Source: Pseudothermotoga sp.
Lineage (GTDB): Bacteria > Thermotogota > Thermotogae > Thermotogales > DSM-5069
DNA length: 64,000 nucleotides
Direction: 5' to 3'
Assembly: GCA_025060105.1 (NCBI GenBank)
Contig: JANXCS010000005.1
Location: forward strand, 62,001 to 126,000
Of the stretch, positions 15,716-18,665 are shown piece after piece. A program made the position numbers and the translations under genes. The notes beneath the pieces were generated by a model, which was not told the DNA's origin, made no database searches, and saw only the letters and a program-made list of their open reading frames with translations. Position 1 is the stretch's first letter, and each line of letters begins with the position of its first letter.

Positions 15716-16855
15716 TCAGCAGTAATCGATGTTGACGATCTTCCCTAAGTCTTTCAAAATTCGTGCCACATCGTGAACGAGTCTAAATTTCAACGAAACA
15801 TCATGGCTGAACAGAGGATTTTGATGTGCGGGGTTGATAGCTCTCCCCACTGTGAAGTTGATTTCATCAGCTTCAAGCATCAGTTTTAAAAGCGTCTGAG
15901 CCGCCAAGCCCAGCTCTTTTTGCTGACCTTCGAGGTATCTGAATACTTGAGTGAGTGTCACGATACCTTCCGTGACCAGTTCGAAACCTTCGAGTTTACC
16001 AATTGGTGGTGAGTACGGTGAAATCGTATCCAAATCTATTTGAACTTTCTTACCAAGGATCCTTTCGAAGATCTGTGCGGTGGTGCCACCACATATCACC
16101 TTTTTTCCAGGCATGCTCATGAAGCGTTTGACCAAGATTTCGTCTTTACTTCTGTCCTCTGGTGGCCCGACGAAAATGTTTAACACGTAGAGTGGCCTGA
16201 ACTGGGCAACCATAGCGAGTGCATCGTCCCCTCTAGTTTCCCTGTCAAGATGTTCTGCAAGTTTGACGAGATGGTTCACAATGTCACTTGGGGGCAACTT
16301 GTATTTCAGTAACGATTCGATTTCTTTCAAGATATTCTTCAAACCGAACCCGAGTGGGAAGTGGGGAGTACCCATGCCGGCTTGAGAAACCCCGTCCGTC
16401 ATCACGAACAAAAGATCTTCCTCCACTGGTTGAAATTTACTGAAGGAAACTTTTCTGCCCTCGATGGTCTTTTCCTCTTTCTCAAGTTCGACAAACTGCC
16501 CATTCCTCAAACAAAGAACAACTGGAAATTCGTATTCCACGACGGTACACTCATTGATGACAGCATCGTAGACCACACAACAGAGGTTCGCATAACTGAT
16601 ACCTCTCACCCTGCAGACAGGTAAGGTTTTGAGAATGGACGAGAACACTTCATCAAATGGAATGTTCCGAAAAAGCATTGTGGCAGCCATCTTCGTTGTG
16701 AGTGTGGAAAGTATGCTCGCCTTCACACCGCTTCCTAATCCATCTGAGACACAAGCAACGACCTTACTTGAACTTCTTTTCACACAGATCGAGTCACCGC
16801 AGATTTCTTCACCTGGCTTGCTTTTCTTTGCGTACTCAATCTGACAAGTGAGCAT
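15716..16855 (-). CDS. PP2C/SpoIIE-type serine phosphatase of the hydrogenase operon
   Basis: About 379 residues. The N-terminal 230 residues form a SpoIIE-like PP2C domain: CGDSICV, the metal-binding [12 protein letters not shown] (about 35), [13 protein letters not shown] (about 150) and TRGDDALAM (about 210). The last 150 residues (from about 235) form a second domain with [17 protein letters not shown] that I cannot assign with certainty. It stands between HydS and HydC, as in other Thermotogae and some Clostridia, where a sensory hydrogenase and a phosphatase occur together. A role in passing an H2 or redox signal to a phosphoprotein is inference; no matching kinase is in the window. ATG 16855 has GGAGGA 7 bases upstream; ATG 16861 is too close. 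Confidence 0.8.
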
Positions 16856-16857
16856 GT

Positions 16858-18447
16858 TCATTCCTCCAAAGACCTTCTCAGCTCGAAAAAGCTGCTCTTT
16901 ATCTCTGCTACAGTCTCTCCCAGCAAGCCTGCTACTTCTTGAACAACTCTCATCTGCTTTGAAAGCATTTCTTCCACCTTGTAGAGGGTTTCTCTTTTGA
17001 TGCGCTTCAAAGTTTCCTCTTGTTGCCTCTCTTTAGTGATGTCTACAAGTAGAAAAACGTCTGCCTTTTCCTCCGGCAGGACGAAAAATTTCACATAATA
17101 AAGGTTTGATCCTATTTGAACGGGTTGGCCTTTCAGAAAAGCCTGCTTCAGCTCGTCAATGAATTTCTCTTCAGAGTCATTTCTGAACAACGTGGAAGCT
17201 GTTTTGTTGCGGTACACGATCGAACCTTCCTTGACCATGAAGATCGCATTGGGCGATTCCTCAACGACTCTGTGAGTCGCTGATTTGAGCTTGTCTACCA
17301 AGTAAGTGACACACATTTCTTTCTCTGCTCTACCCAGCAACACTGCTACAGCTTTATCTCTGCAACTGTCATAACCACATGCCCCGCAGTTCAACCTTTT
17401 TCTTTCATCTTCCTTACCCATTTCCTTCAAAATCTCTTCAATTTTCGTCTCGTCTACTTGAACTGGGTGACGTTTTACCGAGAAACTCCTTTCGATGTTC
17501 ATGTCTGCGTGGAATGGTTCACCATCAAAACACAACATCTTTTGCATGTGACGAGCCATACGAGATCGCTTTTCAGCCAGACTCAGGTCTTTCCTTATGG
17601 CAGGACCGTTGATGCAACCTCCATGACAAGCAGATGCCTCTATGAAAATCTTCCCTTGAGTGGGATCGAAATTCTCAAAAAGATCGATCAGATATTCAAC
17701 ACCTTCAACAACGATGTGAGTTTCGAAGTCTCCATGTACTGTATAGTTAATACCTCCAGATGTTGGATACATTCTCGCTCGGTAGGGATATGGCGGTGAT
17801 GGCAATTGCTCATCGAAGAGGGACAAATCTATTTGTTCTTCTCGCATGATGTTATCGAGTTCCTCAAAAGTCAGAACCACATTCACGTTTTCCTCAGTTT
17901 TCTTTGCCACACATGGTCCCAAGAAGACAACAGGAAGATCACCGTAAAATTTCTTAAGGAACTTCGCGTGTGCTGATATTGGGGAATCAACGTGAGCAAG
18001 ATATGGAAGTACCGATGGATAATGCTTTTCTGCAAGTTCTACCACAACGGGACATGCTGTGGTGATCAGTGCTTCCCTTCGGTTGAACAAATCCATATAT
18101 TTCTTTGATACAATCTCCGCTCCAAACGCGGTTTCTTGAACAATCATTGCACCCCAAGATTTCAACAAGGAGATAACGCGGTAAGGTTCATCATAGTGTG
18201 CAAAGAACGAAGGGGCTAAAGAAACGAGGAACGGGGTGGTGTGCATGAGCTTCCTGAACTGTTCCACATGCTGGACATATCTTTTCGCTCCCTGGGGACA
18301 AACGGAAACACATCTCGCACAGTGAATGCATTCTTCCTCAATCACACGTGTTTCACCGGAGCAGAAAGATATGGATTTCACCGGACAGTTCCTTAAACAT
18401 TTATAACAATACAAACAGTCCGCTTCGTTCGAAAGAATCAATGACAT
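16858..18447 (-). CDS. hydS: sensory [FeFe]-hydrogenase HydS with C-terminal PAS domain
   Basis: 529 residues in the order of group C sensory hydrogenases: two N-terminal [4Fe-4S] motifs (CLYCYKCLRNCP, CIHCARCVSVCP), an H-cluster domain, a further Fe-S site (CGACGYDSCRDKA, about 355), a PAS domain (about 400-480) and a final helical stretch. H-cluster loops are altered from HydA: TTACPVV (about 126), GPCVAKK (about 175) and CHGGCINGP (about 272). The proton-transfer cysteine of loop 1 is alanine, as reported for Thermotoga maritima HydS, which fits slow sensing rather than bulk H2 turnover. It overlaps both neighbours: the [2Fe-2S] protein by 10 bp and the phosphatase stop/start junction. Confidence 0.93.
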   Translation of the reverse strand: MSLILSNEADCLYCYKCLRNCPVKSISFCSGETRVIEEECIHCARCVSVCPQGAKRYVQHVEQFRKLMHTTPFLVSLAPSFFAHYDEPYRVISLLKSWGAMIVQETAFGAEIVSKKYMDLFNRREALITTACPVVVELAEKHYPSVLPYLAHVDSPISAHAKFLKKFYGDLPVVFLGPCVAKKTEENVNVVLTFEELDNIMREEQIDLSLFDEQLPSPPYPYRARMYPTSGGINYTVHGDFETHIVVEGVEYLIDLFENFDPTQGKIFIEASACHGGCINGPAIRKDLSLAEKRSRMARHMQKMLCFDGEPFHADMNIERSFSVKRHPVQVDETKIEEILKEMGKEDERKRLNCGACGYDSCRDKAVAVLLGRAEKEMCVTYLVDKLKSATHRVVEESPNAIFMVKEGSIVYRNKTASTLFRNDSEEKFIDELKQAFLKGQPVQIGSNLYYVKFFVLPEEKADVFLLVDITKERQQEETLKRIKRETLYKVEEMLSKQMRVVQEVAGLLGETVAEIKSSFFELRRSLEE

Positions 18448-18665
18448 GGTTTCACTCCTAAGAGTTTTCCCAGTTTATCAATATCCACGTTTGTATAAAT
18501 TTGACCGTCTATCTCAACACAGACACCCTCTGAACATCTACCGAAGCATAGAGAACCGAAGATTTCTATATTTAAACCCGAATTTTTCAGCTTCTGTAGT
18601 TCTTCGACGATCTTATAAGAACCTTTCAAGTGGCATGAGCTTCCCATACAAACTTTGACAAGCAT
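18438..18665 (-). CDS. small thioredoxin-like [2Fe-2S] ferredoxin, first gene of hydrogenase operon
   Basis: 75 residues forming one thioredoxin-like [2Fe-2S] domain, with ligands in CMGSSCHLKGS and LCFGRC. It closely resembles the last domain of HydA ([17 protein letters not shown]), so it may be a stand-alone copy of that module and an electron carrier between HydA/HydB and HydS (inference). It is the first gene of the run and follows the candidate Rex operator. Confidence 0.88.
   Translation of the reverse strand: MLVKVCMGSSCHLKGSYKIVEELQKLKNSGLNIEIFGSLCFGRCSEGVCVEIDGQIYTNVDIDKLGKLLGVKPCH

Follow-up and report, generated by a model that had tools for sequence, protein, structure and literature searches.

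To what does a sensory hydrogenase report? The question is posed by three genes encoding a small [2Fe-2S] protein, the PAS-bearing [FeFe] hydrogenase HydS and a SpoIIE-type protein phosphatase, which stand ahead of the bifurcating hydrogenase genes (hydCBA) in a 64 kb stretch of a Pseudothermotoga genome (G000:C5:62001-126000; hereafter the window, in whose positions the coordinates of Table 1 are given). A first-pass annotation of this DNA had regarded the trio as a module for sensing H2 or redox state, adding a second input to hydrogenase control beside that of NADH through the repressor Rex. The trio itself is already known (TM1420-1422 of Thermotoga maritima; HydDB group C3), and the one described here adds a member; new are the constancy of the helix-bearing PAS partner, triads devoid of an H-cluster, an undescribed C-terminal domain in the phosphatase, the persistence of the trio in genomes without STAS proteins, and a tandem Rex-type operator. 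The reading that we favour, and hold to be fairly probable, is that the trio constitutes a redox-controlled protein phosphatase, gated in trans by a helix of HydS and acting on a target other than STAS proteins.

The PAS partner and its C-terminal helix

By scanning genome contigs with an alignment of the phosphatase we recovered at least 584 relatives, from which the 80 best-scoring loci were examined (spanning Firmicutes, Cyanobacteria, Atribacteria, Spirochaetes, Planctomycetes, Desulfobacteraceae, Chloroflexi, Cloacimonadota and others). In all 80, the gene directly upstream of the phosphatase encodes a PAS protein with the same C-terminal helix (78 were called by BLAST, L073 and L113 by reading other frames), and the phosphatase is in this sense specific for its partner. 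The latter is a HydS with an H-cluster in 51 of the 80 loci and a PAS protein without one in about 25, a few partners being cut by contig ends.

Across 79 PAS partners, the mean frequency of the commonest residue reaches 0.73 in the helix versus 0.38 in the PAS domain; M499, Q503, A506, L509, G510 and E511 are conserved in every sequence, and the consensus (QMxxxQEIAxLLGETxAETK) is nearly invariant. Because the helix stays near-constant from HydS to the stand-alone PAS proteins, and always has the phosphatase as its neighbour, it would most simply be explained as a docking and switching element, which may contact the phosphatase. In phosphatases of the RsbU and SpoIIE types, control is exerted by a helical linker within the same chain. 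The chain of the trio phosphatase begins at the first catalytic strand, with almost nothing before it and no N-terminal regulatory domain or linker; therefore, the linker would come in trans.

Architecture of the phosphatase

The catalytic domain matches PF07228 with 58.7 bits (cut-off 25), and its metal-binding Asp residues (23, 40, 156, 212 and 213) are invariant in a 16-row alignment. As every one of them is kept, the enzyme is predicted to be active. In the AlphaFold2 (AF2) model of the whole chain (predicted local distance difference test, pLDDT, 93.7) the N-terminal part was assigned by Foldseek to the SpoIIE/RsbX/SiaA fold.

The rest of the chain is modelled as a confidently folded, previously undescribed domain, with the signature GGTT, PP.G, EG.LTL and INPAHQNP. 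It had no match in Pfam or NCBIfam and no sequence relative in the PDB, and no PDB fold scored below E 6.5e-3; the best fold matches (phenylacrylic acid decarboxylase, FhcABCD and methylglyoxal synthase) were not accepted, their template modelling scores being at most 0.5. Over 52 sequences the C-terminal and catalytic domains are equally conserved (42% against 43%), and a higher conservation of the former was found to hold within Thermotogota only. We regard the domain as a candidate for binding a substrate or ligand.

The input: hydrogen or redox state

HydS comprises two [4Fe-4S] motifs (Fer4; C11-C21 and C40-C50), Fe_hyd_lg_C (9.8e-36), FeS (PF04060) and a weak PAS_8 match (0.0034), and its PAS region aligns with stand-alone PAS proteins that match PAS_9 at 3.5e-10. 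The H-cluster ligands are Cys132, 179, 274 and 278 (in TTACP, GPC, SAC and GGC motifs, respectively). An H-cluster with four Cys, a C-terminal PAS domain and an adjacent Ser/Thr phosphatase, the features by which HydDB group C3 is recognized, were thus all found, and full-length orthologues in Thermotogota are 43-73% identical. The first-pass annotation had also stated that the TTACPVV loop (residues 129-135) lacks the proton-transfer cysteine, and this was confirmed: position 131 is Ala, unlike in HydA of the same operon, which has TSCCP. The HydS of T. maritima, studied spectroscopically, likewise has Ala at position 131, and the proton-relay Cys is present in only 17% of sensory enzymes (PMC10055695); its loss is typical of the sensory class. 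The [2Fe-2S] protein, with ligand Cys at 6, 11, 40 and 44, resembles the C-terminal domain of T. maritima HydA (PDB match).

That the module exists as a dedicated H2 sensor, with the H-cluster of HydS measuring H2, is possible, though we lean against it. The HydS enzymes TmHydS and TamHydS react with H2 and have unusual properties (PMC10055695), Ruminococcus albus regulates a group C-linked hydrogenase cluster with the H2 level (PMC6776011), and the H-cluster form of the triad is the commonest in Thermotogota; yet the triad also occurs without any H-cluster, in several settings. Ten such loci adjoin hoxY or hoxH of the cyanobacterial bidirectional [NiFe] hydrogenase (Pfam confirmation for L083), five adjoin a CooS-type carbon monoxide dehydrogenase (CODH; three of them also with acetyl-CoA synthase, ACS, genes), and some hydCBA operons are accompanied by an H-cluster-free triad as well. 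Most CODH-linked triads adjoin a HydC/HydB/HydA-N-like diaphorase (in L089 the HydA-like subunit is without an H-cluster domain). Within Thermotogota, a second arrangement (L033, L036-L040 and one L035 locus) has a stand-alone PAS protein of 165-171 aa in place of HydS, followed by the phosphatase, together with a separate, catalytic-type hydrogenase (478-499 aa, with TSCCP) and, in most cases, a second [2Fe-2S] gene.

Since triads without an H-cluster adjoin hox and CODH/ACS genes, neither H2 nor the H-cluster is the common denominator, which thus lies in NAD- or ferredoxin-linked redox enzymes, and the triad probably serves as a switch for redox state in general, without being dedicated to hydrogen sensing. 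We extend this more tentatively to the proposal that the [2Fe-2S]-PAS-phosphatase triad may be an H-cluster-independent switch for NAD-linked bifurcating or reversible enzymes ([FeFe] HydABC, cyanobacterial [NiFe] Hox and CODH-linked diaphorases), operating outside partner switching, with a helix acting in trans, a substrate-recognizing C-terminal domain and the H-cluster as an optional input. Hence, of the module for sensing H2 or redox state envisaged in the first-pass annotation, the regulatory role stands (as judged from the hfs deletions described below, PMC5707799), while ‘H2’ proved too specific.

The hox-linked triads (L083 3783-9527, L084 4147-9457, L076, L088, L109, L111, L120, L134, L140 and L143) follow hoxH, and several are themselves followed by a HoxW-like protease. 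A candidate role is thereby offered for the PAS and phosphatase genes that adjoin cyanobacterial hox genes; the Synechocystis hox-operon genes sll1222, ssl2420 and sll1225 are of ‘unknown function’ in the literature. The CODH-linked triads (L087, L089, L113, L117 and L141) come from Spirochaetes and Planctomycetes. CODH-linked Bfu enzymes of such a kind have been proposed, from Firmicutes only, in a paper in which a search for the term ‘phosphatase’ gave no match (PMC9304861).

Proposed switch and its direction

We envisage that HydS would read the state of its own H-cluster and Fe-S clusters, the [2Fe-2S] protein being its electron-passing partner, and that its PAS domain would turn the redox state into a change of the C-terminal helix. 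The helix would in turn act in trans as the linker that is built into other SpoIIE/RsbU phosphatases in cis, thereby switching the phosphatase. By default the effect is probably inhibitory, with the phosphatase held off by HydS together with the [2Fe-2S] protein. In Thermoanaerobacterium saccharolyticum, whose hfsABC genes are counterparts of the trio, deletion of hfsA or hfsB gave about 1.8-fold more ethanol and a raised adhE transcript, and that of hfsB raised hydrogenase activity, while no ethanol increase followed the deletion of hfsC, hfsD, hfsCD or hfsABCD (PMC5707799). As this is the epistasis expected if the phosphatase is kept in check by HydS and the [2Fe-2S] protein, the Thermoanaerobacterium deletions suggest, by analogy, an inhibitory sign for the window trio, and a rationale is offered for those hfsB deletions that raise ethanol yield.

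Four points weigh against the switch as proposed. In T. thermosaccharolyticum, the ethanol phenotype is already obtained when a strain deleted for hfsABCD carries hfsD alone (PMC11837493); therefore, hfsC is not strictly required there, and the argument from epistasis is weakened. Deletion of hfsC slightly lowered hfsD expression. The 80 loci, chosen by score, are not a random sample of the relatives, and the constant pairing of PAS protein and phosphatase could reflect a stable complex rather than switching.

The target of the phosphatase

The full trio is retained in two genomes, G082 and G084, each 98% complete, and the only SpoIIE-family proteins in them are of the trio type; searches of both yielded no STAS (PF01740), STAS_2 (PF13466), RsbW-like HATPase or RsbU-like phosphatase of ~450 aa. 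Partner switching of sigma factors is hence not an obligatory target, and a sigma-factor antagonist is an unlikely one. Two further genomes, G081 and G083, are without the trio and without the STAS/RsbW/RsbU system.

The phosphatase might act directly on a hydrogenase, Bfu or Hox subunit and so switch the enzyme itself, which we consider rather unlikely. The recurrent neighbours of the triad are indeed NAD- or ferredoxin-linked enzymes (HydABC-type, Hox, CODH-diaphorase and [2Fe-2S]-hydrogenase), and the rise in hydrogenase activity upon hfsB deletion came without polar transcript effects (PMC5707799), but adhE transcripts shift two- to threefold too, requiring a regulator.

More doubtful is a kinase arm encoded elsewhere in the window genome, where an operon on contig C10 (DRTGG, CBS-HATPase, DRTGG, PHP, HATPase; G000:C10 about 15427-18331, L164 3428-6332) could provide a kinase that opposes the trio phosphatase on the hydrogenase, with a DRTGG protein as the substrate. 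Orthologues form DRTGG-HATPase-group D-like hydrogenase-DRTGG-PHP-HydC-HATPase-HydB-HydA(-Rex) operons (in most of 12 regions from Firmicutes or allied lineages, all from trio-owning genomes), and the CBS-HATPase as well as two DRTGG proteins are still encoded in G082 and G084. However, 6 of 19 trio-bearing genomes, including a Planktothrix chromosome, are without a clear HATPase orthologue, and the genes persist in the trio-less G081 and G083. As the HATPase orthologue is not universal, any role of the DRTGG operon as the target is confined to some lineages; around the trio itself nothing useful was found in the way of DRTGG or HATPase neighbours, and in these genomes the link is seen only at the hydABC operon.

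Least probable is classical partner switching, in which the HydS-gated phosphatase would act on a SpoIIAA/RsbV-like STAS protein and free a sigma factor from an RsbW-like kinase: the catalytic domain is SpoIIE/RsbX-like, and two STAS proteins and a single RsbW-like HATPase are encoded in the window genome, but the trio persists in G082 and G084 without such a system, and a second, much stronger SpoIIE-family phosphatase of the window genome (E 1.3e-53) could serve its STAS proteins. The STAS, RsbW-like and CBS-HATPase genes of this genome all lie on other contigs, none linked to the trio, and Hanks-type kinases were found neither in the window genome nor in any of nine Thermotogota genomes. 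The earlier remark that the window holds no kinase or anti-sigma factor agrees with our searches for STAS, RsbW-like, CBS-HATPase and Hanks-type proteins (histidine kinases were not searched).

In some clostridial loci (L100 5282-6031, L110 2007-2756, L122, L123, L126, L129, L136 and L145) described as Ruminococcaceae-type, the trio is immediately preceded by the gene of a 249-aa APH/RIO-like kinase, itself often preceded by adhE; this kinase likely opposes the phosphatase there. As a kinase arm for Thermotogota it was rejected, having no match in the window genome and matching three Thermotogota genomes that are without the trio.

Returning to the redox-controlled phosphatase gated by HydS, we infer that its target would be a partner of NAD-linked hydrogenase or Bfu-type metabolism, and not a STAS anti-anti-sigma factor. 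For the group C3 HydS, a putative hydrogen sensor, the search for an output is thereby narrowed to a few testable steps.

Operon organization and the Rex-type operator

The seven genes form a packed operon on the minus strand, in the order [2Fe-2S] gene, HydS, phosphatase, hydC, hydB, hydA and rex. The [2Fe-2S] gene and HydS overlap by 10 nt and HydS and the phosphatase by 4 nt, the trio genes being translationally coupled, and a gap of 4 nt leads from the phosphatase to hydC. Gene coordinates, overlaps and domain matches (Table 1) bear out the layout first described, with three genes ahead of hydCBA and rex last.

Table 1. Features of the trio and its operon in the window
Feature	Position	Strand	Basis or remark
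Tandem Rex-type operator TCGTGAAAAATATAACGATAAATATTTCACGA, 32 bp	18680..18711	-	just upstream of [2Fe-2S] gene
Thioredoxin-like [2Fe-2S] protein, 75 aa	18438..18665	-	PF01257 1.1e-7; TM1420 / HfsA counterpart
HydS, group C3 [FeFe] hydrogenase with PAS, 529 aa	16858..18447	-	TM1421 / HfsB counterpart
TTACP loop of HydS, Ala131 replacing proton-transfer Cys	18049..18063	-	sequence reading
PAS domain of HydS, residues 392-474	17026..17274	-	weak PAS_8/PAS matches
Putative C-terminal transmitter helix of HydS, residues 490-524, contains QMRVVQEVAGLLGETVAEIK	16876..16980	-	conservation, 79 sequences
Phosphatase, 381 aa	15716..16861	-	PF07228 1e-15; TM1422 / HfsC counterpart
SpoIIE/RsbU-type PP2C catalytic domain, residues 1-221	16199..16861	-	PF07228, fold match
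Predicted C-terminal Rossmann-like domain, residues 225-381 plus stop	15716..16189	-	AF2 alone pLDDT 92.8
hydC, bifurcating hydrogenase gamma subunit	15217..15711	-	PF01257 1.4e-55
hydB, NADH/FMN subunit	13350..15245	-	Complex1_51K 3e-48
hydA, catalytic [FeFe] subunit	11361..13343	-	FeFe_hydrog_A6 1.4e-173; TSCCP
rex, NADH-responsive repressor	10766..11449	-	Rex NF003996 4.2e-93

A trio-type phosphatase is present in 47 of 103 Thermotogota genomes, and [2Fe-2S]-HydS-phosphatase-hydCBA-rex is the order in most of the Thermotogota loci examined; as this order is kept in most trio-owning Thermotogota, the arrangement is not due to chance. In L052, L059, L061 and L062 the trio is separate from hydCBA-rex, which makes it a portable unit. 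One locus (G084:C8, L035 4684-13990) holds both arrangements, with [2Fe-2S]-HydS-phosphatase on one strand and [2Fe-2S]-hydrogenase-[2Fe-2S]-PAS-phosphatase on the opposite one, and adjoins a rex gene, with a Rex-type site (TTGTGAAAAATATCACAA) at L035:13900. In another (G090:C1:1435772-1437309) HydS is broken up, running over two frames with a stop, beside an intact phosphatase, owing to either a real mutation or an assembly error.

The operator is the sole match in the 64 kb; with our own position weight matrix it scores 49.1 bits, and the next independent site 11.2. Since the matrix was built on the very sites that it scores, information comes only from this off-site comparison (49 against 11) and from the L060 site, left out of the building set. 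Comparison of linked operons shows the element ahead of the trio (12 of 14 aligned upstream sequences, the two without it being the split trios L052 and L061). G074 has its trio apart from hydCBA-rex; there the element sits ahead of hydC (L060) and has thus moved with hydCBA-rex, and the split trios L052, L059, L061 and L062 retain only part of it. In form, the operator is a conserved tandem GTGAAA/TTTCAC resembling two Rex-type palindromes; the T. maritima Rex site (ATTTGAGAAATTTATCACAAAA) is similar, and the Rex regulon of that species includes hydrogen-production genes (PMC8836258). That Rex (NADH/NAD+) separately sets the transcription of the whole operon is well supported as a prediction from this motif. 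Of the two inputs initially supposed, that of NADH through Rex is therefore upheld by the conserved tandem operator, and a sensor arm made of HydS and the phosphatase fits, whereas H2 as the input of this arm is too specific.

Comparison with known systems

In T. maritima, TM1420-TM1422, upstream of TM1424-TM1426 (HydCBA), represent the same module (PMC3561251 Table 6), with no difference of kind seen from the window trio, both having the PAS domain and the Ala131 HydS; Thermotoga-type genomes and the window trio share about 54% identity in HydS and 62-64% in the phosphatase. Group C3 of HydDB is the [FeFe] ‘phosphatase-linked’ group (putative), with an adjacent Ser/Thr phosphatase (PMC5037454), and PAS domains are also found in other group C enzymes (PMC6776011). 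While that group is defined by the H-cluster, the triad described here also exists without it. In Thermoanaerobacterium, the counterpart consists of hfsABC, after which comes the hydrogenase gene hfsD (PMC5707799, PMC11837493): the HfsA, PAS hydrogenase HfsB and serine phosphatase HfsC of T. saccharolyticum are as in the window trio, but they precede the separate hydrogenase HfsD, whereas the window trio precedes hydCBA-rex. It is by gene order that HfsA is taken as the counterpart of the [2Fe-2S] gene.

With the SpoIIE, RsbU, RsbX and SiaA phosphatases the trio phosphatase has the catalytic fold and the metal residues in common; unlike them, it is without an N-terminal in-cis sensor or linker, possesses an extra C-terminal domain and has no tie to STAS proteins. 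The regulatory [NiFe] hydrogenase HoxBC with its histidine kinase HoxJ is a hydrogenase-type sensor that reports to a phosphorylation system. It works similarly, but couples a [NiFe] enzyme to a histidine kinase, whereas the trio couples an [FeFe] enzyme, or none, to a phosphatase and does not belong to the HoxBC/HoxJ family.

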